This document shows, piece by piece, positions 1 through 16,636 of a stretch of DNA of 64,000 nucleotides. Below the pieces are notes generated by a model. That model was not told the origin of the DNA. It saw only the letters and a program-made list of their open reading frames with translations, and made no database searches. Positions within the stretch are counted from its first letter, which is position 1, and the number at the start of each line of letters is the position of its first letter. A program made the translations under genes and the position numbers. This DNA is from an uncultured bacterium. Its GTDB lineage: Bacteria > Hydrogenedentota > Hydrogenedentia > Hydrogenedentales > CAILVY01. The DNA lies in contig CALEDJ010000018.1 of NCBI GenBank assembly GCA_937951485.1, positions 40,902 to 104,901 on the forward strand, written 5' to 3'.

Positions 1-1218
1 GCGGGTGAGGATGCCGTCCTGATCCGTCCAGTAGTGGTGGATGAGGGTGCCGCGCGGCGCTTCAACGATGCCGACGCCTTCCCCGGGAATCTCCACAGGC
101 ACGGTGCGAATTTGCGGGCTTGTGATTTCCGGGTCTTCCAGGAGTTCCTTCATGCGTTCGGCGGCGTAGAGCGCCTCGATGAGGCGCGCCCAATGGGTGG
201 CCAGCGTGCAGTGGGCTGGTTTGCCGCCGAGCACTTCATACATGCGTTCGTAGGCTTCCTGGGCGAGCGGGGTGGCCATGCCGGCGGCGGCGTTCAGGCG
301 GGCGAGCGGCGCGACGCGGTAGATGCCGCTGGCGGAACCATCGGTGAACCCTTTCCAGCCCACGTTTTTCAGAAAAGGAAAGGTGATGTAGGTCCACGGT
401 TCAACGTGTTCCGCGATATGCCGGGGATAATCTCTGGGGGCGAATCTGGCGAATTCGACGCCGTCAGGGTCCACGACGCGGACCATGCCGTCGTAGAAAT
501 TGACCCTGTTCTTCTCATCCACCAGGCCCATATAGTAGGTCTTGTGGGCGTATGCGTCGTTGAGAATGAGGTCTACGTAATCCCGGTTTGCCAGCACGAC
601 ATCATTGAAGAGTTGCAGGGTGAACTGGGCAAAGTCCACGGCGAAGCCCGCGGTCTCCAGAAATTTGCGCCGTTCTTCGTCGGTGATGCCTTTGGATACG
701 CCGCCGGGCAGGCCGAACACCGGATGGATTGCCTTGCCCATCATCGTTTCGAGAATTTGCCGGCACTCGCGCCGCACCCGGATGACCTGCCCCGCAATGT
801 TCAGCCCGACTTTCCCAATGACGCCGAGGATGTTGCGCTCTGCAGCGGGGGCCGTAGGCCCGACCACGAAATCCGGCCCCGCAAGGAAGAAGAAGTGGAT
901 ATAGTGGTCCTCGACCATGAAAGTGCTGTATGCCAGTTCACGGAGTTTTTTTGCGGCCGAGGGCGGTTCGACGCGCCACAGGTCGTCCAGACATTTGGTT
1001 GCGGCCATGTGATGCGCGGTGGGGCAAACGCCGCAGATGCGCGGCGTAATGCGGGGCATTTCCTCGGCGGGGCGGCCCAGGCAGAAGGTTTCGAAGCCCC
1101 GCAACTCCGGCACCTGGAAAAAGGTGCGCTCGACGTTGCCGGCATCATCGAGGAATATCTCAATCTTGCCGTGGCCTTCCAGGCGCGTGATCGGATTGAT
1201 GGTGATTCTTTTGCTCAT
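1..1218 (-). CDS. mvhA: Mvh-type [NiFe] hydrogenase large subunit, partial (3' end outside window)
   Basis: The reading frame opens at an ATG ending at 1218 and stays open to the window edge, giving about 406 residues without a stop. It begins MSKRITINPITRLEGHGKIE, a typical start of a group 3 [NiFe]-hydrogenase large subunit. Residues 60-70 carry the proximal L1 motif RICGVCPTAH, whose cysteines (62 and 65) bind nickel. The distal L2 motif (DPCxxC) would lie beyond the window, so an intact active site cannot be confirmed. The start overlaps the stop of the small-subunit gene by 4 nt, so the two are translationally coupled. With MvhG and MvhD it should form the H2-splitting module of a soluble Hdr-linked complex. 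Family identity is secure; assignment to group 3c rather than another group 3 type rests mainly on the neighbours. Confidence 0.9.
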   Translation of the reverse strand, partial: MSKRITINPITRLEGHGKIEIFLDDAGNVERTFFQVPELRGFETFCLGRPAEEMPRITPRICGVCPTAHHMAATKCLDDLWRVEPPSAAKKLRELAYSTFMVEDHYIHFFFLAGPDFVVGPTAPAAERNILGVIGKVGLNIAGQVIRVRRECRQILETMMGKAIHPVFGLPGGVSKGITDEERRKFLETAGFAVDFAQFTLQLFNDVVLANRDYVDLILNDAYAHKTYYMGLVDEKNRVNFYDGMVRVVDPDGVEFARFAPRDYPRHIAEHVEPWTYITFPFLKNVGWKGFTDGSASGIYRVAPLARLNAAAGMATPLAQEAYERMYEVLGGKPAHCTLATHWARLIEALYAAERMKELLEDPEITSPQIRTVPVEIPGEGVGIVEAPRGTLIHHYWTDQDGILTR

Positions 1219-2195
1219 AACGCCTCTTCTTTCTCAATGCAGCGCCGTTTCAAGAGGGATGCCGGAAGGCTGAAACGATACAGCGTGCCAATCGGGTCCG
1301 CCAGGGTGCCGGCGAGCGCCATTGCCGTTCCATCGGAATCCGCTTCGCCCAGCGTCCCCAACGCACCGAGCATCTTCGTTCCCATGTCCAACGCCCCGGG
1401 GGTCGGGCCAAAACATCCGCGACAGGGCATATTGCCGTGGATGCACCGCTCGCCGCAGCCGGACCGCGTGGCAGGTCCCATGCACACATAGCCTTGGGCG
1501 AGATAGCACCTGTCGGGTTCGGGCGTGCTCGTGGCCACGCGTTTGAACTCTTTGATGGCCAGGGTTTCTGGTTTAGTTTCGTTGAGGGGGCAGGACTCAC
1601 AGAGGGATTTTTCAGGGGCGAGCACGGATCCTTTCGGCGGCAGCGCGCCCTTCAGAATGGCATCCACGGCCTGTGCAACAAGCGCGGTCGGCGGGGGACA
1701 TCCGGGAAGATAGTAGTCCACGTCAATGACAGCATCGAGCGGCTTGACGTCTTTCCAGAAAAGCGGAAGTTCCAATTCATAACCGTTGACCGTGCAGGCG
1801 GTGCGCGGTTCGACGCGGTTGGGGTTATCCACCGTGAGGCTTCGGTGGTACTTGTTGGCGAGGATTTCCTCGCGGGTGGTATCGTTGGCCAGCCCCGGAA
1901 TGCCGCCGAGATGCGCACAGGAACCAAACGCGATCACCAGGGGGCACTTTTCGCGAAGCAACCGGACCCATTCGTGTTGCTCGGACAACCGGACCGCACC
2001 GTTGATGAACGCCACCGCGACTTCACCGGGTTGCCAGGTTTCGACATCCTTGAGTTTGAAGTCCAGCGCCACGGGCCACAGCGCGATGTCCACGGCTTCG
2101 ACCACCTTGAGAATATCTTCTGCGAGATCCACCACCGTTTCTTCGCACCCCCCGCAAGAGGCGCACCAATAAAATGCTACTTTCGGCTTGGCCAT
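1215..2195 (-). CDS. mvhG: Mvh-type [NiFe] hydrogenase small subunit
   Basis: The 326-residue product is the electron-transfer subunit of the hydrogenase and passes electrons from the NiFe site through [4Fe-4S] clusters to MvhD. The N-terminus (residues 9-18, YWCASCGGCE) holds the CxxC pair for the proximal cluster, and further cysteines follow at GSCAHLGG, LPGCPPP and the C-terminal CMGPATRSGCGERC and MPCRGC segments. There is no Tat signal, consistent with a cytoplasmic group 3 enzyme. The ATG is preceded by an AGGA box. The gene lies 15 nt downstream of mvhD and overlaps mvhA by 4 nt (ATGA). It could equally be named by the generic F420-non-reducing hydrogenase small-subunit name; nothing suggests F420 use here. 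Confidence 0.92.
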   Translation of the reverse strand: MAKPKVAFYWCASCGGCEETVVDLAEDILKVVEAVDIALWPVALDFKLKDVETWQPGEVAVAFINGAVRLSEQHEWVRLLREKCPLVIAFGSCAHLGGIPGLANDTTREEILANKYHRSLTVDNPNRVEPRTACTVNGYELELPLFWKDVKPLDAVIDVDYYLPGCPPPTALVAQAVDAILKGALPPKGSVLAPEKSLCESCPLNETKPETLAIKEFKRVATSTPEPDRCYLAQGYVCMGPATRSGCGERCIHGNMPCRGCFGPTPGALDMGTKMLGALGTLGEADSDGTAMALAGTLADPIGTLYRFSLPASLLKRRCIEKEEAL

Positions 2196-2210: not shown

Positions 2211-2654
2211 CTATGCGCTTTCACTGAGCGCCGCCACCCGTTCCTCCCAGCGGAGCGGGCCGAGCGCGCGCACCTGTTCCGTAAATTCCTTCACCAAGGC
2301 GGCGAACTGTTCGCCTTCCGACGCAGACACCCATTCCAGACGGAGCCGCGCCGGTTCAATACCGAACTGAGAGAGCAGATTTTTGAGCATCGGGACCCGG
2401 CGCATGGCTTTGTAGTTGCCCTCAAGATAGTGGCAGTCGCCGGGGTGACACCCCGCGATGAGGACGCCGTCGGCCCCGTCCGCAAAGGCCTTTACCACGA
2501 AGGTGGGATCCACGCGACCGGAGCACATCACGCGGACGGCGACCACATTGGAAGGATACTGGACGCGACTCGTTCCCGCGAGGTCCGCTCCCGTATAAGA
2601 ACACCAGCGACACAGAAATCCCACGATTTTCGGTTCAAAAGACGCCTCTTCCAC
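2211..2654 (-). CDS. mvhD: Hydrogenase iron-sulfur linker subunit MvhD
   Basis: The 147-residue protein is the [2Fe-2S] linker that connects MvhAG to HdrA in methanogen-type complexes. Conserved cysteines are visible in LCRWCSYTGAD, VMCSGRVDP and AGCHPGDCHY, the standard MvhD pattern. The start is a GTG five bases after the stop of the upstream NuoG-HdrA fusion gene, with a GGGAG box; an overlapping ATG is out of frame. In many bacteria mvhD is fused to hdrA, but here it is a separate gene immediately after the gene that ends in the HdrA C-terminal half. That gene order fits direct contact between MvhD and the HdrA C-terminal ferredoxin domain. Confidence 0.92.
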   Translation of the reverse strand: MEEASFEPKIVGFLCRWCSYTGADLAGTSRVQYPSNVVAVRVMCSGRVDPTFVVKAFADGADGVLIAGCHPGDCHYLEGNYKAMRRVPMLKNLLSQFGIEPARLRLEWVSASEGEQFAALVKEFTEQVRALGPLRWEERVAALSESA

Positions 2655-2659
2655 GGCAT

Positions 2660-4474
2660 TTACTCCCTCAAAACCGGTTCAGTCTCCGGGTGCAAAATAC
2701 CCTCTATCTCGGCGTAAATCTGAACATCCTCGAAGTTCCGTTGTCGGGCCGCCCCGGAAGGACACGCGGCGACGCAGGTGCCGCAGCCCTTGCACAATTC
2801 TTCGATGACCCGGGAGATTTTCTTTTCTTCATCGAATTCGATGGCGACATAGGGGCAACTGGCGATGCAGATTTTGCAGCCCGCACAGAGTTTCTCATCT
2901 ATCTCGCTGGTGATTGGTTCGAGCACCACTTTGCCGCCGTCGATCAGCGCCAATGCGCCCGCAGCGGCGGCGGCTCCCTGCGCCACGGCATCGGGGATGT
3001 CTTTGGGACCCTGACAGGCTCCGGCGAGGAATATCCCGTCGGAAGCGGTGTCCACCGGCGCGAGTTTCGGATGTTTTTCGAGATAGAACTGTCCCTGGGT
3101 GCAACTGAGCGAAAGCAGGCGGGCGAGTTCCTCCGCGCCTTGCGCCGGTTTGATTCCCGTCGAGAGGATCACCATGTCTACGGGAATGCGGCGCGTCAGA
3201 CCGAGCAGCGTATCTTCCCCGATGACGATGAGTTTGCCCTTTTCCTCGGGCGATTCCGCCGCATCGGTCACCTCGGCGGCCTTGCCCCGGATGAAATAGA
3301 CGCCTTCGGCGAGCAGCCGCTTGTAGAATTCCTCATAACCTTTTCCGAATGCGCGCATGTCAATGTAGAAGTTGTAGACATCAGCGTGCGTTTTCTCCCG
3401 GATGAGGTGTGCGAATTTGAGGGAATACATGCAGCATACACGTGAACAATATTTCTGATAGTTTTCGTCGCGGCTGCCGATGCAATGCAGAATGGCCACG
3501 GATTGGGGCGGCGTGCCGTCTTTCTTCAGAACTTTACCGCCGGTCGGCCCGCTGGCGTGGCTGATCCGCTCAAATTCCAGCGCGCTCAGCACGTTATCGA
3601 AGCGTCCATAGCCGTATCGGACCAGTTGGCGGGCGTCGAAAAGTTGAAAGCCTGTGGCCACGACAATGGCGCCCACGTCCAATTCAACCATCTCGTCCTC
3701 CTGCGCATGCCGAATGGCCTTGGCCTCGCAATTGTCTTCGCAGACCTTGCAGCCGTTGGTCTTGAAATGCATGCAGGTGTGCTTGTCAATGACAGGCACG
3801 CGCGGCACCGCCTGGGCGAATGGAATGTAAATTGGTTTGCGGTGTGTAAGACCTTCTTCAAATTCAAAGGGGATGCGTTGCGGCACATGTTCCCAAATCC
3901 GGTGATGCTCGATGGCGCCGGTGGGACAGATCGAACTGCACGCACCGCAGGTCATGCAGACATCCGAAGGTTCGCCGAAGGGCGTGGTGACGCGCCGCCC
4001 GCCGCCGCGTCCCTCGAAACTGAGTGCGCCAATCTTCAGCACGTCATCGCAGAGGCGCACGCACATGCCGCAGAGGATACAGCCCTCCTCACCCACGATG
4101 CTGCTCGGCTCGCCGACCGGTTTGCGGAAGCGGCTCTTTGTGACGTTGAATTGGGCGGCCAATTCCCGGATGACTTTCGAGTCCGGACATCGGGCCAGGA
4201 ACAATTCCGCCAGCATTCTGCGGATGCGCATGACTTTTTCAGACTTGGTGTTGACTTCCATGCCCTCCGCCACCGGCAACGTGCACGATGAGACCAGCCT
4301 GGTCCTGCCTCGCTGCGTGACCTCAACGAGACAGATGCGGCATGACCCATAAGGCGGCAGCGATTCATGGTGGCATAGCGTTGGGATCTCGATGGCGGCG
4401 CCGCGCGCCGCGTTGAGGACCGTTGTGCCTGATTCCGTCCTCACGGTCTTGCCGTCAATCGTCAGTGTGATCAT
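2660..4474 (-). CDS. Fusion of NuoG/HoxU N-terminal iron-sulfur module with C-terminal half of HdrA
   Basis: The 604-residue protein has two parts. Residues 1-195 are a NuoG/HoxU-type module: a [2Fe-2S] domain with C34, C45, C48 and C64, then two [4Fe-4S] motifs (C132/135/138/142 and C173/176/179/183). From about residue 200 the sequence is the second half of HdrA. It starts at the RKPIYIPFAQAVP segment, continues through a cysteine group (C234/242/245/249), the AIVVATGF and FIDMRAFGKGYEEFY-type stretches and the HPKLAPV and AGACQGPKDIPDAVAQ flavin-domain motifs, and ends with two ferredoxin-like clusters (CAGCKICIASCP, CKGCGTCVAACP). It lacks the HdrA N-terminus and its GxGxxG FAD motif, which are encoded two genes upstream. 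The ATG has a GAGGAGAGGT box. It should bridge NuoF to HdrA and MvhD. Confidence 0.88.
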   Translation of the reverse strand: MITLTIDGKTVRTESGTTVLNAARGAAIEIPTLCHHESLPPYGSCRICLVEVTQRGRTRLVSSCTLPVAEGMEVNTKSEKVMRIRRMLAELFLARCPDSKVIRELAAQFNVTKSRFRKPVGEPSSIVGEEGCILCGMCVRLCDDVLKIGALSFEGRGGGRRVTTPFGEPSDVCMTCGACSSICPTGAIEHHRIWEHVPQRIPFEFEEGLTHRKPIYIPFAQAVPRVPVIDKHTCMHFKTNGCKVCEDNCEAKAIRHAQEDEMVELDVGAIVVATGFQLFDARQLVRYGYGRFDNVLSALEFERISHASGPTGGKVLKKDGTPPQSVAILHCIGSRDENYQKYCSRVCCMYSLKFAHLIREKTHADVYNFYIDMRAFGKGYEEFYKRLLAEGVYFIRGKAAEVTDAAESPEEKGKLIVIGEDTLLGLTRRIPVDMVILSTGIKPAQGAEELARLLSLSCTQGQFYLEKHPKLAPVDTASDGIFLAGACQGPKDIPDAVAQGAAAAAGALALIDGGKVVLEPITSEIDEKLCAGCKICIASCPYVAIEFDEEKKISRVIEELCKGCGTCVAACPSGAARQRNFEDVQIYAEIEGILHPETEPVLRE

Positions 4475-4492
4475 GAATACCTCTCCTCAACG

Positions 4493-6370
4493 CTAATTAC
4501 GCAATACGGCGTTATATCTGCACATGTCATAGCAGACGCCGCACTTGGTGCACTTGGCCGGATCAATCGTGTGCGGCTGTTTCTGTTCGCCATGGATCGC
4601 CTCCGCGGCGCAGTTGCGTGCGCACAGCATGCACCCAGTACACTTCTCGGGGTCAATCGAATACGTCACAAGCGCCCTGCACACCCCTGCGGCGCACTTC
4701 CGATCGCGCACATGCGCTTCGTACTCTTCGGGGAAATAACGCAAGGTGGTCAACACGGGATTGGGCGCGGTGATGCCCAACTGACACAGCGACGCCTCGC
4801 TCACGACTTCCGCCACCTCCTCCAAAAGGGGGATGTCCTCCGGTTTTCCCTTGCCTTCGCAGATATCGGTCAAAATCATTCCCATTTGCACAATGCCTTC
4901 CCGACACGGGGTGCACTTGCCGCAGGATTCGTTTTCCAGGAATCGGGTGAAAAAGCGCGCAAAATCCACCATGCAGTTGTCTTCATCCATGACAATCATG
5001 CCGCCGGATCCCATCATGGTGCCCGCTTCCACCAACTGATCGTAGTCAATCGGCAGGTCAAGATGGCGTTCGGCCAAAACGCCGCCGGAGGGGCCGCCCG
5101 TCTGCACGCCCTTGAGTTTCTTGCCGCCCTTCACGCCGCCGCCAATGTCGAATACGACCTGCCGCAGTGTTGCGCCCATCGGGACTTCGACCAGACCGGT
5201 ATTGTTGACCTTGCCGACGAGCGAGAATATCTTCGTCCCCTTGCTGCCGCCCCATGGGCTTTTCGTCACATCCCCCGTGCCGATACGGGTGAACCAGTCC
5301 GCGCCTTTGTTGATGATCAAGGGGATGTTCGCCCATGTTTCGACATTGTTGAGATTGGACGGTCGGTCCCACAGCCCGCTTTCCACGGTGTGGATATGTT
5401 TTGCGCGCGGCTCGCCGACGCGTCCTTCAATTGAAGCCATCAATGCGGTGGATTCGCCGCAGACGAAGGCCCCGCCGCCGCGGACGATGCTGATGTCAAA
5501 GCGCAGCCCCGTGCCGAGAATGTTTTCGCCAAGCAATCCCATCGCTCGCGCGTCGTTGACCGCCTGCGCCATAAGGTCAACAGCGAGCGGGTATTCAGTG
5601 CGCACATACACATAGCCCTCCAACGCGCCGATGGCATATGCGCCGATAATCATGCCTTCGACAACGCTGTGCGGGTTGCCCTCCAGGAGACTGCGGTTCG
5701 CATAAGCGCCCGGATCACCCTCGTCGGCGTTGCATATCACGTATTTGTGATTCCCCGGGGCTTTGCGGCACGAGGCCCATTTCACCCCTGCGGGAAAGCC
5801 CGCCCCGCCGCGCCCGCGCAGGCCGGACCGCGTGACTTCCTCGATGATTTGCTCAGGGGTCATGCGCGTCAGCGCTTTTACGAGAGCGCTGTACCCGCCG
5901 ATGCGGAGGTAGTCGTCAATGCTGCGGGGATCGAGTTCAAGATTCGCACCGAAAATCAGCCGGGTCTGCCGCTTATAAAAGGGGATGTCATCCTGTTTCT
6001 CGAAGATGCGCCCGCTCGCGTCCTTGTAGAACAGCCGTTCAATGCGTTCGCCGTTCAGGACCGTCTTCTCTACGATTTCTTCGGCGTCGTCGGGCGTCAC
6101 CGACACATACAAGAGCCTTTCCGGCAACAGCACCACCAGGGGGCCCTGCTCGCAGAAGCCATGGCAACCGGTAATCCGAAGCCCTACCTTATGGTCCAGT
6201 TCGTGTTTTGCCAGAACTTCGCGAAACGCGGCTATCACTTCGCCCGCCGCGTTGGCCAGACACCCCGTACCCCCGCAAATGAGGATACAGGGGCGCTGGG
6301 GATCGTACATGCCGATGAGGCGTTCCCGGTAGGCGGCGACTTGTTCAGGAGTTTTCAATGTGGCTGGCAT
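4493..6370 (-). CDS. nuoF: NuoF/HoxF-like NAD(P)H-oxidising FMN subunit with extra ferredoxin domain
   Basis: The 625-residue flavoprotein would exchange electrons with NAD(H) or NADP(H) through FMN. An N-terminal thioredoxin-like region (residues 25-105) retains four cysteines (C32, C37, C69, C73) that could bind [2Fe-2S]. The FMN/NADH core begins with RGRGGAGFPAG near residue 185, followed by CNADEGDPGAY. The [4Fe-4S] N3-type motif ESCGKCTPCREG lies near 481-492 with its fourth cysteine at SLCQLG. The C-terminus adds two [4Fe-4S] motifs, as in HndC/HydB-type subunits of NAD(P)-linked hydrogenases. The gene lies 7 nt downstream of the hdrA-nuoE fusion and 18 nt before the nuoG-hdrA fusion, so it is the middle of the cassette that splits hdrA. 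NADH versus NADPH preference cannot be read from sequence by eye. Confidence 0.92.
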   Translation of the reverse strand: MPATLKTPEQVAAYRERLIGMYDPQRPCILICGGTGCLANAAGEVIAAFREVLAKHELDHKVGLRITGCHGFCEQGPLVVLLPERLLYVSVTPDDAEEIVEKTVLNGERIERLFYKDASGRIFEKQDDIPFYKRQTRLIFGANLELDPRSIDDYLRIGGYSALVKALTRMTPEQIIEEVTRSGLRGRGGAGFPAGVKWASCRKAPGNHKYVICNADEGDPGAYANRSLLEGNPHSVVEGMIIGAYAIGALEGYVYVRTEYPLAVDLMAQAVNDARAMGLLGENILGTGLRFDISIVRGGGAFVCGESTALMASIEGRVGEPRAKHIHTVESGLWDRPSNLNNVETWANIPLIINKGADWFTRIGTGDVTKSPWGGSKGTKIFSLVGKVNNTGLVEVPMGATLRQVVFDIGGGVKGGKKLKGVQTGGPSGGVLAERHLDLPIDYDQLVEAGTMMGSGGMIVMDEDNCMVDFARFFTRFLENESCGKCTPCREGIVQMGMILTDICEGKGKPEDIPLLEEVAEVVSEASLCQLGITAPNPVLTTLRYFPEEYEAHVRDRKCAAGVCRALVTYSIDPEKCTGCMLCARNCAAEAIHGEQKQPHTIDPAKCTKCGVCYDMCRYNAVLRN

Positions 6371-6377
6371 GGTGGTG

Positions 6378-7667
6378 TTATTCCTGTGTGTATCGCTTCA
6401 AGACTTTCTCAAGTTTGCTGCGATTCAGGTTTCCATGATATTTCCCGTCTATGACGATTACCGGAGAAAGGGCGCAGGCTCCGAGACAATTCACAGTCTC
6501 CAGCGTGAATTTGAGGTCTTTGGTCGTCTCTCCCGCTTTAATTTCCAGGCGCTCCCCCAGGGCGTCCAGCAGGCGCTGCGCGCCGCGAATATGGCAGGAC
6601 GTGCCGACACAGACCTTGACGGCATGCTCGCCGCGCGGCGTCAGGCTGAATGCGGTGTAGAAGGTGGCAACGTGATATACACGCGAAAGCGGCAGCCCAA
6701 GCCGCCGGCTGATGTACTTGAGCGCTTCGGGGGGCAGGTACCGGAATTCGAGATTGATGTCTTGCAGGACGGAGATCAACGGCGCGCGTTCGTGGCGGTG
6801 GAGGTCCAAGGCTTTGTCAACGGCCACCTTCAATTCCGGGCGGATTTCCACCGGGACACGGCGGCGTGCATCGCCGTTTGTGGGCCGGTATTGCACGGGA
6901 CATCGCGTCATGCATTGGCCGCACCCCGTGCATTTCTTCTCGTCCACGTAGCGCGCCTTGCGTCGCACCTTGACCTTAAAGTTGCCGACATAGCCCGCGA
7001 CATGCTCAATTTCGGAGTAGGTCATCAGTTCGATGTTCTTGTGCTGTCCGACGGCGACCATTTTCGGGGTGAGGATGCAGGCGGCGCAATCGAGCGTAGG
7101 GAAGGTCTTGTCGAATTTCGCCATGTGGCCTCCGATGGAGGGTTCGCGCTCCACCAGATACACCTTCTTACCCGCGTCGGCCATTTTCAGGGCCGCTTCA
7201 ATGCCGGCGATCCCCGCGCCCACCACCATGGCCTTCGGCTGTACGGCGACCTCCCGTTCTTCCATCGGCCTGTGGTGCTTTACGCGCCGAACAGCGGCAG
7301 CCACCAGGCGCTTGGCTTTCTCCGTGGCTTTTTCGTGGTCCATGTGTACCCAGGAGCATTGCTCCCGGATGTTGGACATCTGGAAGAGAAAGCGATTCAA
7401 TCCGGCGTCCTCGCAGACATTGCGGAAGGTGATCTCGTGCATCAAGGGGGAACAGGAAGAAACCACGACGCGGGTGAGTTGATGGTCCGCGATGTCTTTT
7501 TTGATCAATTCCTGGCCGGGACTGGAGCACATGTATTTGTACTCCTTGGTCACCACGACGCCGGGCAGGGTGCGGGCAAAGTCGGCGACCGCCGCCACGT
7601 CCACGGTTTGGGCGATGTTTGTGCCGCAATGGCAGATATAGACCCCGATACGTTCGTCGTTGTTCAT
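6378..7667 (-). CDS. Fusion of N-terminal half of HdrA with NuoE-type [2Fe-2S] subunit
   Basis: The chosen ATG at 7667 overlaps the hdrB stop by 4 nt, giving 429 residues; an in-frame ATG six bases upstream is the alternative. Residues 1-262 are the first half of HdrA: the CHCGTN N-terminus, the C47 and C72 region, the FAD motif GAGIAG (150-155), GGHMAKFDKTFPTLDCAAC (C194, C197), and one [4Fe-4S] motif (C246/249/252/256). The HdrA sequence stops inside its inserted ferredoxin domain. From about residue 283 the protein is a complete NuoE/HoxE thioredoxin-like domain with ligands C353, C358, C394 and C398 (VCVGTSCHIRG, VNCLGACALSP). The missing half of HdrA is fused to a NuoG module two genes downstream. 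The FAD site is therefore made of two polypeptides, if it assembles. Confidence 0.88.
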   Translation of the reverse strand: MNNDERIGVYICHCGTNIAQTVDVAAVADFARTLPGVVVTKEYKYMCSSPGQELIKKDIADHQLTRVVVSSCSPLMHEITFRNVCEDAGLNRFLFQMSNIREQCSWVHMDHEKATEKAKRLVAAAVRRVKHHRPMEEREVAVQPKAMVVGAGIAGIEAALKMADAGKKVYLVEREPSIGGHMAKFDKTFPTLDCAACILTPKMVAVGQHKNIELMTYSEIEHVAGYVGNFKVKVRRKARYVDEKKCTGCGQCMTRCPVQYRPTNGDARRRVPVEIRPELKVAVDKALDLHRHERAPLISVLQDINLEFRYLPPEALKYISRRLGLPLSRVYHVATFYTAFSLTPRGEHAVKVCVGTSCHIRGAQRLLDALGERLEIKAGETTKDLKFTLETVNCLGACALSPVIVIDGKYHGNLNRSKLEKVLKRYTQE

Positions 7668-8557
7668 GGGCATGCCACCTTTTCCGTCAGCAGCGCTTCC
7701 ACGGGCGTGAGCGAATCCCGGAGCGCCAATGCGTCTTCTTCCAGTCCAAACGCATATCCCATCAACTGCGTGAAATACAGCACCGGGATGGCGCAGTCGC
7801 GCCCCATCACCGCGCTGACCTGGTGCTGATAGGCTTCCAGGTTCATCTGGCACAGCGGGCAACACGTCACTACACAGTCCGCCCCGGACTCCCTCGCCAG
7901 TTGCAGAATCTTCCCCGTGAGCGTCCGCCCCACCTCCGGTTGCGTTGTCATCATCAGTCCGCCGCAACACTTCGCCCGCAACGAGAACGGCACGGGGTCC
8001 GCACCCAGCCATTGCACCAATTGATCCAGGGACTGCGGATTTTCTTCGTCATCAATTTCTCCGAAAGGGCGACTGATCTGACATCCGTAGTAGCACGCCA
8101 CGCGCAATCCGGCAAGGGACCGGGTCGCGCGTCCGCGAATGGCGTCTTCGCCCGCATCATTCACGACAACATCCAGGAAATGGCGGACCCGGACGCTCCC
8201 CCGATAGGCCATGCCGCCCTTGGCAAGGGCCTGGCCAATCTCGGACCGCAGCCGCTCATTCTCCGCCATATACTTGTTCGCCTTGCGCAGCACCACGTAG
8301 CAACCGCTGCATGGCGTAACCAAGTCGCGTTCCGAGCGCTCGGCAAGCGCCAGATTGCGCGCAGACAATACAAACGCCTGCTTTTCCCGAATGGCGACAT
8401 AGGCCGTCGCCCCGCAGCAGTTCCAATCCTCCAACTCGTTCAGTTCCAATCCCAGGGCATGCGCGACGCCCCGCGTCGAGATGTCGTAGGCTTTGTTGGT
8501 CGCCATTTGCGAGCAACCCGGATAGTACGTGTAGGTGTGTGCCGTCGCCGTGTTCAT
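7664..8557 (-). CDS. hdrB: Heterodisulfide reductase subunit B-like
   Basis: The 297-residue protein carries two CCG-domain motifs (WNCCGATAY near residue 46 and KCCGGLMMT near residue 197), each with upstream cysteines (YYPGC, YYGCQ) and downstream CxxC partners (CSGCY, CCPLC). In characterised HdrB these bind the two non-cubane [4Fe-4S] clusters at the disulfide-reducing site. All ligand groups appear present, so an active HdrB-like site is plausible. In bacteria the substrate is usually unknown. The gene overlaps hdrC and the hdrA-nuoE fusion gene by 4 nt each, so translation of the three is coupled. Confidence 0.92.
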   Translation of the reverse strand: MNTATAHTYTYYPGCSQMATNKAYDISTRGVAHALGLELNELEDWNCCGATAYVAIREKQAFVLSARNLALAERSERDLVTPCSGCYVVLRKANKYMAENERLRSEIGQALAKGGMAYRGSVRVRHFLDVVVNDAGEDAIRGRATRSLAGLRVACYYGCQISRPFGEIDDEENPQSLDQLVQWLGADPVPFSLRAKCCGGLMMTTQPEVGRTLTGKILQLARESGADCVVTCCPLCQMNLEAYQHQVSAVMGRDCAIPVLYFTQLMGYAFGLEEDALALRDSLTPVEALLTEKVACP

Positions 8558-9123
8558 GGGGATGCGTTCTCCTCAATGGCCGCCATCATCTTGCGAAGTT
8601 CCTCCCGGCCCTTAATCCTGTGCGGCCGTAATCGCATCCGGCCCCGCGACAAGAGCCGAAGCCCCAGGATGACCTGGCTCAGAAATCGCAGTGGATTGGT
8701 GCGCAGGTAGTAATTCCGAATCAATTCCGGCTCGTGATTGCGCCCATAGCGGTCCACGGACGCCACAAACGCCTGCGCCATCACTGCATTCGTGGTCCCC
8801 TTCGGATACAACCCGTATTTCACCCCCAGACGCTTGAGTTCATACATTACGTCGGTAAACGGGATACCCGCCGGGCAGCGCACTGTGCAGGAGTAACAGG
8901 ACGAACACAGCCACACCGTGTTGGACTTCAGCACCCGCTCCAGCATCCGCGCGCGCAACGCCGCGATTACCTCCCGAGGACTGTATTCCATTGCCGTCGC
9001 CGTCGGACACGACGCTGAACAGGTCCCGCATTGCAGACACTCATTGATCTTCGATCCATTCGGAATTGCGCAAATCTTCCGCAGGAACACGTCGCAAAGA
9101 TCTTTAGACGCCGCCGCTTCCAT
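8554..9123 (-). CDS. hdrC: Heterodisulfide reductase subunit C-like
   Basis: This is the first gene of the hydrogenase operon. The 189-residue product has two [4Fe-4S] motifs, CLQCGTCSASCP and CSSCYSCTVRCP, which carry electrons between HdrA and HdrB. The ATG at 9123 is preferred over an upstream in-frame start because a GGAGG box lies eight bases before it, and the sequence from MEAAASKD matches the family start. A C-terminal basic tail (residues 165-189) follows the second cluster. No convincing promoter was found in the upstream 870-bp gap. Confidence 0.9.
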   Translation of the reverse strand: MEAAASKDLCDVFLRKICAIPNGSKINECLQCGTCSASCPTATAMEYSPREVIAALRARMLERVLKSNTVWLCSSCYSCTVRCPAGIPFTDVMYELKRLGVKYGLYPKGTTNAVMAQAFVASVDRYGRNHEPELIRNYYLRTNPLRFLSQVILGLRLLSRGRMRLRPHRIKGREELRKMMAAIEENASP

Positions 9124-9991
9124 GTCAGGCCTCCATTGCCGCACGCGCATTCTGCGCCATTGCAACCCAGGCGATTGACAGGTCTTGTCACAAGCCCTTC
9201 ATCACCAAGACGGCATTTTGTCGGCGCACCTGTGGAATGCTGGCGACTGCGACACCCCGAGACGGCAGGACGCCGCTTCGCTATCAGGAGGAAAGATGGT
9301 GGGAAGAACTCGGAACGGTCTTGTGTCCGTTCCTTTGCTTTCATGAGCGCGGTAACCGGCCCGCACCCCCCCGGTCACGAAAACCGTATTGTCCCCGTGT
9401 ACGGCACTTCGCGGCACGACACTTCTCCTTTGCACCCGCAGGTACTGCTGATACTGCCGAAGAAACTGCTCGCGCCATAGTTCCGGTGTAAACCACCCGC
9501 CGTAACTTCTGGCCAATAATGAAATAATCTTATCATAGTCCAAAGCAAAACGCAAGGGTCCGCTTCCGGGTATTCGCCTTCGCACCAGGTGCGCTCCGTA
9601 TCCGATGGTCACTTGAACTTCTGAACCTGAAACGGGCGCAAAGCGCATCGCCGTCCGGACCGTGATGCATTGAATGCCCGGTCCACATGCCATGCAAGCC
9701 CCTTGGGCATTGTTTTTGGGCTTCGATGCACCGTTCCGGTGAAATGACCGCTTCAAGGGCGCTTCCGAGGAGGATTCAAGTCATGCGGCAAGCCCGGCGG
9801 CACGCCGCATTTGCGGCCTAATCTGACAGCAAGACCACCGGTTTGCGCGCGGTCAAGGCGATACAAATGCATATCCCGGCAGTCTGACACGCTTTCCAAG
9901 GAATGTGAATTCCACGTCAGGAAGCCCTATTCTGATAGGAAGGCCGTATCGTAATCCGTGCGCACAAACGGAAAGAGAGGAACCAGGCGTA
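9124..9991. other. Divergent intergenic region between hdrC and the sulfatase gene
   Basis: No secure gene is visible in these 868 bases. A minus-strand open frame at 9202-9756 (184 codons) has no recognised domain, an odd cysteine-poor composition and no convincing ribosome site. It has some protein-like stretches in its middle, so a decayed gene is possible. A perfect 5-bp hairpin (cttgt/acaag around 9184-9194) lies upstream of hdrC and could be regulatory, but it is too short to assign. Promoters for both flanking operons presumably lie here; I could not place them. Confidence 0.4.
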
Positions 9992-11533
9992 ATGACACCT
10001 GCCTTTGGATGCCATCCGAATCTAACCCGCAGAACCTTTCTCCAAGCGCTGACGGCGTCGGGACTGCCGGCCATGTTAGCGCCATTCCGCCGCGCGACCG
10101 CGCAGCGAGCGCCGCTTCCAAATATTGTCATCATGTATGCGGACGACATGGGCTACGGCGACCTGGCCGCGCAAAATCCGGATTCGAAGATTCCTACGCC
10201 CCATCTGGACAGGCTTGCGCAGGAAGGCATTCGGTTCACGGATGCGCACAGTTCTTCGGGAATCTGCACGCCGAGCCGCTTTGCTTTATTAACCGGCATA
10301 TATCATTGGCGGAAGTTTCACGGTATTGTGAACAGTTTTGAAGGACCGGTGTTCGGGGATGAAATGACGCTTCCGACCATGCTGCGGCAACGGGGCTATG
10401 GCACCGCATGCATTGGCAAGTGGCATCTGGGCTGGGATTGGGATGCGATCCGGATTGGTGACCGGTCTCCGGCGCAAGAAATACCGCGTCCCGATGATTT
10501 TGACTGGCTGCGGCCTGTGCCGGGCGGACCACTCTCCCGTGGCTTTGACTATTATTTCGGCGATGATGTGCCGAATTTTCCGCCGTATGCGTGGATCGAA
10601 AATGACCGCTTGGTGACGGTTCCCACTGAAATGTACACGCCCGACCCCGTGCCGGAGGAAGGGCATCATGAAGGGCGGCCTGGCCCGATGACGCCCGGCT
10701 GGAAACTTGACGCGGTGATGCCACACCTCACGGAACGCGCGGTTTCCTGGATCGCCGCACAAAAAGGTTCTGCGCGACCTTTCTTTCTTTACTTCCCTTG
10801 GACTTCGCCCCATACTCCCATTGTTCCCGCGCCTGAGTTCAAAGGGCGCACCGGGGCCGGCCCGTATGGCGATTTCGTACACCAGGGCGACTGGTCGGCG
10901 GGACAGGTCCTGCAAGCGCTTGATGCGCATGGTTTCCGTGAAAACACCCTCGTCATTTTCAGCAGCGATAACGGTCCGGAACATTACGCCTATGAACGCG
11001 TCCGCACGCACGGTCACCGGAGCATGGGGCCGTTGCGGGGACTCAAACGGGATATCTACGAAGGCGGACATCGTGTGCCGTTGCTGATGCGTTGGCCAGG
11101 AGTCATTTCGCCGGGCAGCGTGAGCGACGCGCTCATAAGCCAGGTGGATCTGATGGCCACCATTGCCGCGTTGACGGGCTGTGCGCTTCCAAGCGGCGCT
11201 GCCTTGGACAGTTACGACATGTCGCCATTATTGCGCGGCGAGCCACCCGATTCGCCCATCCGAACGGTTCATGTGCATAACACTTTTGAGAATCATTACG
11301 CTTTGCGGCAAGGGGACTGGGTGTATTTGGATGTGAAAAGCGGCGCCCATTCGAAGGTGCCCGAATGGTATGACGAAGAACACGGCTATGTTGCCAATCC
11401 GCACGAAAAGGCGCTCTACAATCTCCGCGATGACATCAGTCAGCGCGTGAATCTTATAGGTCAATATCCGGAACGCGCAGCGGCAATGAAAGAAGCGCTT
11501 GAACAAGTGATGAAACAAGGACACAGGGTATAA
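9992..11533 (+). CDS. Tat-exported sulfatase (family S1-like)
   Basis: The chosen ATG at 9992 gives 513 residues; an upstream in-frame ATG at 9905 would place 29 unlikely residues before the signal. The N-terminus has a twin-arginine signal ([14 protein letters not shown]), so export of a folded enzyme is expected. The sulfatase core begins [17 protein letters not shown] with metal-binding aspartates. The formylglycine motif is [11 protein letters not shown] near residue 95, the cysteine-type signature. GKWHLG and SSDNGPE supply further active-site residues. The substrate is not predictable. The Cys-type motif can be matured by the anaerobic radical SAM maturase encoded at 43892-45211. The gene stands alone and is followed by a transposase remnant. 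Confidence 0.93.
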
Positions 11534-13567: not shown

Positions 13568-13825
13568 GCGACGAAGCCGAAGCCCCTTCCGGGGAGCGCA
13601 GGCGTCCCGCCTGCAAGGTTCTGGCAATCCTGTGGTGGGTCGGACATGCCGGACCAGTCGGACGAGTCGGACGGTTTTGCGGGAGGAAGTTCTGGAGTGC
13701 AGGCTTCAGCCTGTGGAGGATACAGGCGGGGACGCCTGCGCTCCCGGAATGCCTGTTTGACTTCACGAATCCGCGACGCCAAGAATACGCCACACGCCAA
13801 ATACGCGCCGGAAGGAGGCACAGGC
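13568..13825. repeat. Palindromic dispersed-repeat cluster upstream of the GH38 gene
   Basis: This 258-bp gap holds two kinds of short palindromes. One is gcaggcgtcccgcctgc at 13598-13614. The other is tggagtgcaggcttcagcct, starting near 13693 and followed by a second hairpin built on caggcggggacgcctg. Related copies occur at 36330-36425 and 58020-58080. No coding sequence is convincing. The GH38 ribosome site (GGAGG, 13814-13818) lies just after. Confidence 0.65.
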
Positions 13826-16636
13826 ATGCCCGCGAAGCCGTTTGTAATCCATGTCATCTCGAACACGCACTGGGATCGGGAGTGGCTCTACAATTTCCAG
13901 GAAACCCGGATGCTCCTGGTGGCGTTTTTCGACGGTCTCCTGGAGATCCTCGACCGGCGCCCGGAATACCGCGCTTATGTGCTCGATTCCCAGACCGTGC
14001 CCGTCGAAGATTATCTGGAAGTCCGTCCGGAACAGCGCGACCGCATTGTCCGCCATGTGCGCGATGGCCGCCTTCTGATCGGCCCGTGGTACACTTGCCC
14101 GGAGGGCTTCGAGGTCAACGGCGAGTCGCTGGTGCGCAACCTCCTTTACGGCCATCGCGTGGCGCGGGCCTTCGGCGGGGTGATGAAGGTCGGGCACACA
14201 CCCTTCTCCTACGGCCAGAATTCTCAGATGCCGCAGATTTACGCGGGCTTCGGCATTGACACCATCCTCTTTTACCACGGCGTGAGCCATGATGAGGTGA
14301 AAAACGAATGGATTCTTGAGGGGGCGGACGGCACGCGGCTGCTTGCCAGCCAGATGAGCAGCGGTGCGCGGTACAACTTTTATCATGGCGTGTATCGGCC
14401 GGTACGCTGGGGAAAGGAGGCCGCGGAGCGCGAGTACGGCTGGAACGAATGCGGCATGCAGTTCCACCCCGGCGGGCCGGACTTCGCCATGGACCATCAT
14501 CTGATTCTCGATCCGCAGCCGGGTCTCGACCTGGCGAAACTCACGGACCGTGTGCGCGCACTGCGCGAAAATGAAATCCGCGTTGCCACGACGCGCCATC
14601 TCGCCTTCATGATGGGGCATGACAGCAGCATCGCCGACGAAGCGGAGATCGCCATGATCGAAGCGGCGCGCGCCGCGTTGCCCGACGACGAGGTCCGCCA
14701 TGCCTCGTACCCGGAGATGATGGCCGCCATCAAGGCGGAGGTGGATTGGGACAAACTATCCGTGCTGCGCGGGGAGCGCCGCACGCCGAAACCCATGCCG
14801 ATCGCGCTGCACCTGTACAGCGATGTGCTGTCCAGCCGCGCGCGGATGAAACGGCGCAACGCGATCGCGGAGATGTGGCTGCAACGCCGCGCGGAGCCGT
14901 TCGCCGCCGCCGCCGCGATGCTGGGCTGCGAGTATCCCGCCGGGCTGCTCGACATCGCGTGGAAGACGCTGCTCAAATGCCACGCGCACGACAGCATCTC
15001 CGGCAGCGGCGTGGATGACATCGAGGAAGACATGATGGACCGCCTGCGCCAGGTCATCAACCTGTCCAAGGGCATCCTGAAGCAGGCGCTCGGCCGCATC
15101 CAACTGCGCATTGACAATGGCGCGCACGGGCGCGACGCCGTCCTGATCACGGTCTTCAATCCCACGCCGCAGCGGCGCACGGCAGTGGTGACCACGGTGG
15201 TGGACCTGCCGGATGCAGGGCCGCGCGGCGAGTTCCGGCTGGTGGATGTCGAAACGGGCGAAGCGACCGTTGTGCAGGACGCGGGCCGTCGTCCGTATTG
15301 GGCCGTGGTGAAACACTTGGGCGATGCCGCCGCAATGGTCAAAAGCCGCCGTTTTTGCATCCACTTCGAGGCGCGCAATGTCCCGGGCCTGGGGTATGCC
15401 GTGTACAAGGTGGACCGGAGCGGCATGTTCGACCGCGGCAGCCTGGTGATGGCGGCGAACACGCTGGAAAACGCGCATCTGCGGGCAAAGGTCGAAAACG
15501 ACGGGACGATTACGCTGCTGCACAAGGCGACCGGCGTCACGTACCGCGATCTGGGTTATGTATTGGACAACGGCGAGGCGGGCCATGCCTGGATGCACCA
15601 CAACCCCGCGCATGACGCCGTGATTGACAGCCGGGGATTTCCCGCGAGCATCGAAATGGAAGAGGACGGCCCGCTGCTTGCGCGCCTGCGCGTGCACCAC
15701 GTGATGCGAGTGCCGGCGCGGCTGGAGGAAAACGGCGGCGATGCCTGGCAGCGGCTCGACGGCGTCGGCAACAATGCGCGTCGTTCCGAGGAGACGCGCC
15801 CGATGCCGGTCTCGGTGTACGTCACACTGCGGCGGGACGCGCCCGGCCTGGAACTGCGGGTCTGCTTCCACAACAGCGCCGAGGACCACCGGATCAGGAT
15901 GGTCTTTCCCACGCGGCGCGCAGGAACGCTGTGCCACGCGGAAAGCGCCTTCGACGTGGTGGCGCGGGAGACCGTGTTCGGCCCGGAGAGTCCCTGGCAC
16001 GGCGCGCGCGGCGTGACGTTTCCCATGCAGCGCTTTGTGGACGTAAGCGACGGCGCCGCCGGGCTGGCGATCATCAACGACGGCCTGCGCGAATATGAGG
16101 TGACGCAGGATCAGGACCGCGCAATCGCCGTCACGCTGATGCGCGCCTATCAGGTGAGCCTCACAACCGTCAGCCACCGCTGGGAGGAGCGCCCGGAGAT
16201 GAAACTCGCCCAGTGCCCCGGCGCCCACGAATTCCGCCTGCTGGTCTATCCGCATGCCGGCGACTATGCGACGGGCGGCGTCCTCGCGGCGGCGGAACGC
16301 TTCGCCGCACCGATGGAACCCGCCCAGGCGGGCGCGCATGGCGGCGACCTGCCGCCCCGGCACGGCTTCCTCCACATTGAACCCGACGCGATCGCCCTCA
16401 GCGCCTTCAAACGCGCAGAGAATGGCGACGGCTACATCGTGCGCCTGTGGAATCCGACCGAAGAAACCGTGGAGGGAACCCTGCGATTCGGGCGACCGCT
16501 CCAATCCGCCGAATGCGTCTCGCTTGAAGAAATTTCCCTCGAACCGGCGTCCACCCGTGGCAATGTCGTTGCGCTGCGGATCGGTCCCAAAAAGATTATG
16601 ACGGTGCGTGTGCGATTCGAGCAGCCACAGGGCTGA
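13826..16636 (+). CDS. GH38-family (alpha-mannosidase-like) protein lacking the usual nucleophile Asp
   Basis: The ATG at 13826 has a GAAGGAGG box eight bases upstream and gives 936 residues. The N-terminus VISNTHWDREW supplies the zinc ligands H15 and D17, and the KCHAHDSISG segment near residue 390 supplies the second zinc-binding His. C-terminal all-beta domains continue to the end, as in bacterial GH38 enzymes. In GH38 enzymes the nucleophile Asp sits in a PDSFG-like motif; here the aligned segment is VGHTPFSYGQ, so residue 127 is Phe. The rest of the fold looks intact. Either it uses another residue or it is not a retaining alpha-mannosidase. No signal peptide is visible, so a cytoplasmic location is likely. 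Confidence 0.85.
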   Translation: MPAKPFVIHVISNTHWDREWLYNFQETRMLLVAFFDGLLEILDRRPEYRAYVLDSQTVPVEDYLEVRPEQRDRIVRHVRDGRLLIGPWYTCPEGFEVNGESLVRNLLYGHRVARAFGGVMKVGHTPFSYGQNSQMPQIYAGFGIDTILFYHGVSHDEVKNEWILEGADGTRLLASQMSSGARYNFYHGVYRPVRWGKEAAEREYGWNECGMQFHPGGPDFAMDHHLILDPQPGLDLAKLTDRVRALRENEIRVATTRHLAFMMGHDSSIADEAEIAMIEAARAALPDDEVRHASYPEMMAAIKAEVDWDKLSVLRGERRTPKPMPIALHLYSDVLSSRARMKRRNAIAEMWLQRRAEPFAAAAAMLGCEYPAGLLDIAWKTLLKCHAHDSISGSGVDDIEEDMMDRLRQVINLSKGILKQALGRIQLRIDNGAHGRDAVLITVFNPTPQRRTAVVTTVVDLPDAGPRGEFRLVDVETGEATVVQDAGRRPYWAVVKHLGDAAAMVKSRRFCIHFEARNVPGLGYAVYKVDRSGMFDRGSLVMAANTLENAHLRAKVENDGTITLLHKATGVTYRDLGYVLDNGEAGHAWMHHNPAHDAVIDSRGFPASIEMEEDGPLLARLRVHHVMRVPARLEENGGDAWQRLDGVGNNARRSEETRPMPVSVYVTLRRDAPGLELRVCFHNSAEDHRIRMVFPTRRAGTLCHAESAFDVVARETVFGPESPWHGARGVTFPMQRFVDVSDGAAGLAIINDGLREYEVTQDQDRAIAVTLMRAYQVSLTTVSHRWEERPEMKLAQCPGAHEFRLLVYPHAGDYATGGVLAAAERFAAPMEPAQAGAHGGDLPPRHGFLHIEPDAIALSAFKRAENGDGYIVRLWNPTEETVEGTLRFGRPLQSAECVSLEEISLEPASTRGNVVALRIGPKKIMTVRVRFEQPQG

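Follow-up and report, generated by a model that had tools for sequence, protein, structure and literature searches.

In the stretch of DNA analysed here (64,000 nt from an uncultured member of the Hydrogenedentota; hereafter the window), the gene for HdrA, which separates electron pairs into electrons of high and of low energy, is interrupted by a bifurcating cassette, and each half is fused to a subunit of that cassette. We propose, with a probability of roughly 0.68, that the locus encodes an eight-subunit HdrABC-MvhADG-BfuABC enzyme in which the ferredoxin port of HdrA is hard-wired to an NADH/ferredoxin bifurcation core. The observations underneath this proposal are the identity of the modules, the exact junctions between them, the retained cofactor motifs, the tightness of the operon and the conservation of the arrangement across phyla. 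Together, the gene products probably make up a single large complex that is linked to hydrogen and couples energy at two sites.

All eight genes are arranged head to tail on the (-) strand, running from position 9165 to past window position 1 in the order hdrC, hdrB, hdrA-N/bfuC, bfuB, bfuA/hdrA-C, mvhD, mvhG and mvhA, and they either overlap by 4 bp or are spaced by gaps of 5-18 bp. HdrC (8554..9165; 203 aa) carries two CxxCxxCxxxC motifs, and HdrB (7664..8557; 297 aa) has two CCG domains with both non-cubane cluster motifs. The first fusion protein (429 aa, 7667-6378) opens with the N-terminal part of HdrA (6888..7667; residues 1-260), containing the GxGxxG FAD motif, Cys194/Cys197 and the first cluster of the inserted ferredoxin domain (C246/249/252/256), and ends in a BfuC/NuoE domain (6378..6821; residues ~283-429) with the [2Fe-2S] ligands C353/C358/C394/C398. 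In methanogens, the equivalent of Cys197 is a ligand in trans between HdrA copies (PMC9012536). The gene for BfuB/HydB (4493..6370; 625 aa) sits between the two fusion genes. The second fusion protein (604 aa, 4474-2660) begins with a BfuA/NuoG-N module (3908..4474; residues 1-189), which has a [2Fe-2S] site at C34/45/48/64 and two [4Fe-4S] sites at C132-142 and C173-183 and lacks a His-Cys3 cluster. Its remainder is the C-terminal part of HdrA (2660..3883; residues 198-604), with the second cluster of the inserted ferredoxin domain (C234/242/245/249), the cysteines C331/343/347/348, the rest of the FAD domain and the C-terminal 2x[4Fe-4S]. MvhD (2211..2654; 147 aa; FlpD match, E 4e-56), the group 3c-like [NiFe] hydrogenase small subunit MvhG (1215..2195; 326 aa; VhuG match, E 5e-58) and the large subunit MvhA follow; the last occupies 1..1218, extends beyond the window to 485 aa on the contig and bears the NiFe ligands C62/C65 and C455/C458. 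From these L1/L2 CxxC ligands, the MvhG match and the position of MvhD beside the hdr genes, we provisionally assign the hydrogenase to group 3c MvhADG. The FAD motif, the HdrA cluster motifs, the non-cubane motifs of HdrB, the HdrC motifs and the NiFe motifs of MvhA are thus all intact at the locus, and the cluster cysteines of HdrA-C and BfuA do not vary among 17 BfuA-HdrA fusions drawn from many phyla.

The position of the cut in HdrA can be defined closely. Residues 4-260 of the first fusion match solved HdrAs (8rvu, E 6e-102; 5odc, E 1e-101) and residues 283-427 match HydC/NuoE chains (8a6t_C, E 4e-44), as the preliminary description had stated in proposing that HdrA runs through its first inserted cluster into a NuoE domain. 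Residues 1-195 of the second fusion match HydA/NuoG N-terminal modules, and residues 200-595 match HdrA again (residues 267-654 of the 8rvu chain, E 4e-119). A NuoG-N module followed by HdrA had been described here as well, but the restart had been put exactly at IYIPFAQAVP, whereas HdrA homology resumes ~15 residues earlier, at about residue 198-200 (..PQRIPFEFEEGL). In 8rvu numbering the two halves join at 268|267, with no gap and no real overlap, and nothing is lost or duplicated; the expectation that the two pieces would make up one normal HdrA held. The cut separates the two [4Fe-4S] motifs of the inserted ferredoxin domain and is in frame on both sides, which confirms the earlier view that hdrA is divided within this domain by a NuoE-F-G(N)-like cassette. 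In place of the usual single polypeptide of ~650 aa, the chain is cut after residue 260 and its halves are joined to BfuC and BfuA, and the two chains together hold the N-terminal, FAD/thioredoxin-reductase, inserted ferredoxin and C-terminal ferredoxin domains with their cluster cysteines. Both halves derive from one hdrA, as they have the same nearest neighbours in separate trees. Single-chain AF2 models of the two fusions, built from shallow family alignments, reached moderate confidence (pLDDT 70.7 and 68.3); each model matches, as it should, an HdrA chain in one half and a HydA or HydC chain in the other, and the junctions are of low confidence.

We identify the cassette, by its domain content, as a HydABC or "Bfu" electron-bifurcating core and not as a diaphorase, because BfuB carries the domains of the published Bfu criterion and because of the form of BfuA. 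In that criterion, the N-terminal [2Fe-2S] and C-terminal 2x[4Fe-4S] domains of BfuB separate bifurcating Bfu enzymes from non-bifurcating homologues (Schut et al. 2022; PMC9304861). BfuB of the window has a Trx-like [2Fe-2S] domain at its N terminus, followed by the FMN/NADH domain, the SCGKCTPC cluster, a CxxxxC motif (559-564) and a C-terminal 2x[4Fe-4S] domain. It thereby contains the FMN/NADH, SLBB and NADH_4Fe-4S domains together with the extra ferredoxin domains (clusters B1-B5); in Pfam, PF01512, PF10589 and Fer4 score above the cut-off and SLBB aligns while scoring below it. Its best match is the bifurcating HydB of Acetomicrobium mobile, with which it aligns end to end (7t2r_B; residues 26-622, E 1e-227), and it also aligns with other bifurcating HydB proteins, whereas plain NuoF aligns with its core only (E ~1e-110). 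BfuC has the thioredoxin-like [2Fe-2S] domain (PF01257, E 2e-48, residues 284-426). BfuA is of Type 2, without an A3 or A5 cluster (the A numbers being our own assignment by inference), and its closest solved relative belongs to a bifurcating tungsten aldehyde oxidoreductase (9mqx_A, E 3e-40). The cassette had earlier been taken for a hoxEFU-like diaphorase, and a simple HoxEFU/NuoEFG module that merely exchanges electrons between NADH and HdrA would indeed share the NuoE, NuoF and NuoG-N folds. That reading now seems very improbable and is largely refuted: a diaphorase NuoF has no extra FeS domains, and BfuB, which aligns with HydB over its full length, has the N-terminal [2Fe-2S], the C-terminal 2x[4Fe-4S] and the CxxxxC of bifurcating HydB, all absent from NuoF/HoxF; on these domains we reject the diaphorase.

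Sequence comparison places the same hdrA split, between the two inserted ferredoxin clusters, in about ten phyla. Two further genomes of the same phylum (G058 and G045) have both fusions, with 52-53% identity in HdrA-N/BfuC. In a scan of the genome_contigs collection, the best 80 loci included split loci which, named by their locus titles, belong to Sedimentisphaerales (Planctomycetota), Armatimonadota, Glassbacteria (where the contig end cuts the locus), Sumerlaeota, Vicinamibacterales and Bryobacteraceae (Acidobacteriota), Aminicenantes, Ignavibacteria, Zixibacteria, Chlorobiaceae, Bacteroidetes and Neomarinimicrobiota. By our own count of matches that span both modules, the BfuA-HdrA-C fusion occurs in ~19/297 sampled genomes from the phylum of the Aminicenantes locus (L074) and in ~4/296 from that of the Bacteroidetes locus (L100). 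Searching genomes for HdrA-NuoE and NuoG-HdrA fusions, as had been suggested, thus recovered both, the BfuA-HdrA-C form being widespread and the HdrA-N-BfuC form confined to few loci. Of the two peptide links foreseen between cassette and HdrA, both are present in the window and a handful of other loci, but most relatives have only the BfuA-HdrA-C link, which is the general feature.

This recurrence in independent genomes of many phyla rules out an assembly chimera or a unique oddity, and the association of HdrA with Bfu by fusion is far beyond chance. The source assembly is a draft (94% complete, 77 contigs), which is the one ground for suspecting an artefact or a decaying gene; with intact frames, a tight operon, conservation of all ligands and the same hdrA junction in unrelated assemblies, we regard this as next to impossible. 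The contig itself is 105 kb long. An intact hdrA elsewhere that might serve the operon was looked for, and the source genome yielded only one other HdrA, a double protein of 1536 aa that is accompanied by an HdrBC and MvhD of its own.

Most relatives encode HdrA-N (about 280-300 aa) by a gene of its own, and their gene order is HdrA-N, putative regulatory genes, BfuC, BfuB and BfuA-HdrA-C. Read directly from their sequences, the genes after HdrA-N resemble the regulatory genes that accompany bifurcating FeFe hydrogenases (DRTGG, HATPase, hydrogenase-like sensor, PHP). By analogy, HdrA-C would in these relatives occupy the position of the H-cluster domain of a bifurcating FeFe hydrogenase. Two loci (L060/L150 and L102) have no BfuB between the HdrA halves, and BfuB in cis may accordingly not always be needed.

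The trees speak against simple descent of the split from one event. A genome of the same phylum (G040) has the operon hdrC-hdrB-hdrA-mvhD-mvhG-mvhA with an intact hdrA and no cassette, at 71-79% identity in every subunit. The split proteins lie scattered over the HdrA tree, and an AU test rejected one common origin for them (p 2e-6 with 18 rows; p 8e-33 with the 15 of the main clade). Two caveats apply: such scatter could also result from gene conversion between split and intact copies, and the groups were defined while looking at the trees. A single clade of all BfuBs from split loci was likewise rejected (AU p 6e-6). Between the window and locus L057, the HdrA halves are 78% and 72% identical and BfuC, BfuB and BfuA 43-53%; a clade of the two HdrAs as sisters was not rejected (p 0.63), whereas sisterhood of their BfuBs was (p 2e-7), and with it the sharing of one insertion of one cassette, which for this pair leaves a replaced cassette or two insertions. 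Because split HdrAs and BfuBs are both scattered and the BfuBs of the window and L057 are not sisters, the trees indicate that different Bfu cassettes have held the same HdrA site, through repeated insertion or replacement.

We attribute to the complex the following electron path, with direction and coupling taken from relatives. The two HdrA halves would reassemble, and the HdrA FAD site would then be shared by two chains. In methanogens, low-potential electrons leave HdrA through the inserted ferredoxin domain, which binds FmdF or MvhB (PMC9012536, PMC12350162). Because in the window this domain is covalently joined to BfuA and BfuC, electrons would pass into BfuA and then BfuBC, with the HdrA ferredoxin arm trading electrons directly with BfuA in place of free ferredoxin. 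By analogy with other Bfu enzymes, BfuBC would then couple the electron pair from BfuA to NAD(H) and ferredoxin. Two serial bifurcation sites, the HdrA FAD and the BfuB FMN, would thereby link H2 (at MvhAG), the disulfide substrate of HdrB, NADH and ferredoxin. In a fermenting host, the likeliest use would be confurcation, in which NADH and reduced ferredoxin, perhaps with thiols, are oxidised to yield H2; under excess H2 the reverse direction would be expected.

We favor this eight-subunit double-bifurcation reading because the halves are gap-free, the motifs are kept, BfuB is of the Bfu type and the G040 operon exists without the cassette; because the inserted ferredoxin domain is a partner-binding site that elsewhere holds NfnB/GltD modules; and because in several of the 15 genomes searched the matches listed include no HdrA other than the split one, and double-HdrA proteins show the same split in their first half (L148, L152, L153). 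HdrA might instead be a non-bifurcating structural or electron relay between MvhAG and Bfu, making the complex a bifurcating [NiFe] hydrogenase linked to NAD and ferredoxin, as in A. mobile HydABCSL, and having a single bifurcation site in BfuB. We consider this unlikely: A. mobile NiFe-Bfu does function without HdrA (PMC8880783, PMC9304861) and its HydB is the nearest solved structure to BfuB of the window, but the FAD motif, the HdrA cluster cysteines, Cys197 and the complete HdrB/HdrC disulfide-reductase motifs are all retained, and HdrBC would be pointless. Less likely still is a chance fusion of subunits from two separate enzymes, Bfu and HdrABC-MvhADG, that share no electrons. Such a reading would fit the separate HdrA-N and BfuC genes of most relatives, but in split loci BfuA and the HdrA-C half form one polypeptide, HdrA would be left as two free halves without the Bfu subunits, and the split is seen on several lineages of HdrA and of Bfu.

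The double-bifurcation enzyme that we propose has several known counterparts. One is the class II benzoyl-CoA reductase BamBCDEFGHI (Bam-Bfu), which also combines HdrA-type and BfuABC (BamGHI) modules in one complex and for which two serial bifurcation sites have been proposed (PMC9304861). In that complex, HdrA and BfuABC remain distinct subunits, and a tungsten enzyme provides the active site, whereas in the window HdrA is split with its halves fused to BfuA and BfuC, HdrBC and a NiFe hydrogenase are present, and none of the eight operon genes encodes a BamB/BamC tungsten subunit, which sets the locus apart from Bam-Bfu benzoyl-CoA reductases. HdrA9-11 of ANME-1 carries an NfnB-like NAD(P)H module in the same HdrA ferredoxin domain and has two possible bifurcation flavins (PMC9012536); there the insert, one FAD/NADPH protein, leaves HdrA a single chain, while that of the window is a three-gene FMN/NADH/Fd core that makes HdrA two proteins. 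Methanogen HdrABC-MvhADG (5odc, 8rvu) shares the Hdr and Mvh subunits and motifs, but its HdrA is one chain whose ferredoxin domain serves free ferredoxin or a polyferredoxin. A. mobile NiFe-HydABCSL (NiFe-Bfu, 7t2r), which provides the closest BfuB structure, similarly links BfuABC to a NiFe hydrogenase, but without HdrA, HdrB, HdrC or MvhD and with a longer BfuA (692 aa) containing more clusters. Wor-Bfu (9mqx) shares the short BfuA and differs in its third substrate, an aldehyde handled by a tungsten subunit.

The separate parts are thus already known, as is the combination of Bfu and HdrA as separate subunits in Bam-Bfu; relative to the open literature that we searched, the splitting of hdrA by a Bfu cassette is new. 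Our searches of the open PMC literature brought up no account of an HdrA that is split, fused or linked to NuoE, though reviews or supplements may mention one, and the splitting was likewise not found in a paper devoted to Bfu enzymes of the Hydrogenedentota (PMC11406978). Among cultured organisms, Caldithrix abyssi and Thermoanaerobaculum aquaticum are candidate carriers, their hdr/group 3c clusters as published being suggestive (PMC5317091). If the proposal is correct, many uncultured anaerobes would possess a natural enzyme in which two bifurcation mechanisms, HdrA FAD and Bfu FMN/FeS, are covalently joined, encoded by genes that are usually annotated as ordinary MvhADG/HdrABC plus separate nuo or hyd genes. 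The fusions would also serve as a genetic prediction of the chain contacts between Bfu and HdrA in Bam-type complexes. Metabolic models of fermenters with group 3c hydrogenases would need revision, with NADH joining ferredoxin as a partner in electron exchange.

The findings further point to the inserted ferredoxin domain as an interchangeable electron port of HdrA. Both the 1536-aa HdrA of the source genome and another genome (G048) have an NfnB/GltD-like NADPH module in-chain at this same site. We see about an even chance that the inter-cluster linker of this domain is a general plug-in port for NAD(P)H-bifurcating modules, which would have been inserted repeatedly (Bfu as genes that split hdrA, NfnB/GltD within the chain), each insertion producing a double-bifurcation enzyme and the Bfu cases a two-polypeptide HdrA flavin site. 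In G045, FAD/NAD-binding and FeS genes, assigned by reading their sequences, follow MvhD in place of MvhGA, and this apparent swapping of partners supports a modular hub.

The genome that carries the window encodes a second HdrA, a double HdrA of 1536 aa on contig C15 (locus L040, 14016-18623, plus strand), whose gene is adjoined by those for HdrC, HdrB, and MvhD. Within this protein, an NfnB/GltD-like NADPH module occupies residues of about 183-600, and the point of insertion lies directly behind the ferredoxin domain's first cluster.

A double HdrA was likewise observed in split form at three loci (L148, 10567-16593; L152, 4386-7640; L153, 4905-8177), where a single chain of 1076-1091 aa joins BfuA to the first HdrA's C part and to the second HdrA; at L148, BfuC is joined to the N part of the first HdrA. 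At L060/L150 and L102, HdrA-N adjoins BfuA-HdrA-C without an intervening BfuB, and the L060 genome harbors an additional complete copy, BfuB included, at L149.

Inside the split hdrA, between HdrA-N and BfuC, loci L064, L070, L072, L074, and L099 hold a set of genes whose products look like DRTGG, HATPase, FeFe-hydrogenase-like sensor, and PHP proteins; this set is similar to the regulatory genes in operons for bifurcating FeFe hydrogenases. In the split operon of the relative G045 (L044, 5703-8550), the genes behind MvhD are of FeS and FAD/NAD-binding (Flx/sulfhydrogenase-like) types and take the place of MvhG and MvhA; the electron-donor module thus seems to have been swapped. This contig (C157) and JAACEL010000106.1 (L061) are identical in length, gene content, and gene positions, whereas the taxonomic labels of their MAGs conflict (the window's phylum versus Nitrospiraceae).

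In Chloroflexota, the HdrA frames at L128, L131, L133, and L135 each contain a single in-frame stop, directly behind TFPTLDCS(A/T). This stop falls at the position of Cys197 and possibly encodes selenocysteine.

Because a sulfatase (9905-11533) and a GH38 alpha-mannosidase (13646-16636) adjoin the window operon, its gene neighborhood suggests a polysaccharide-degrading host.
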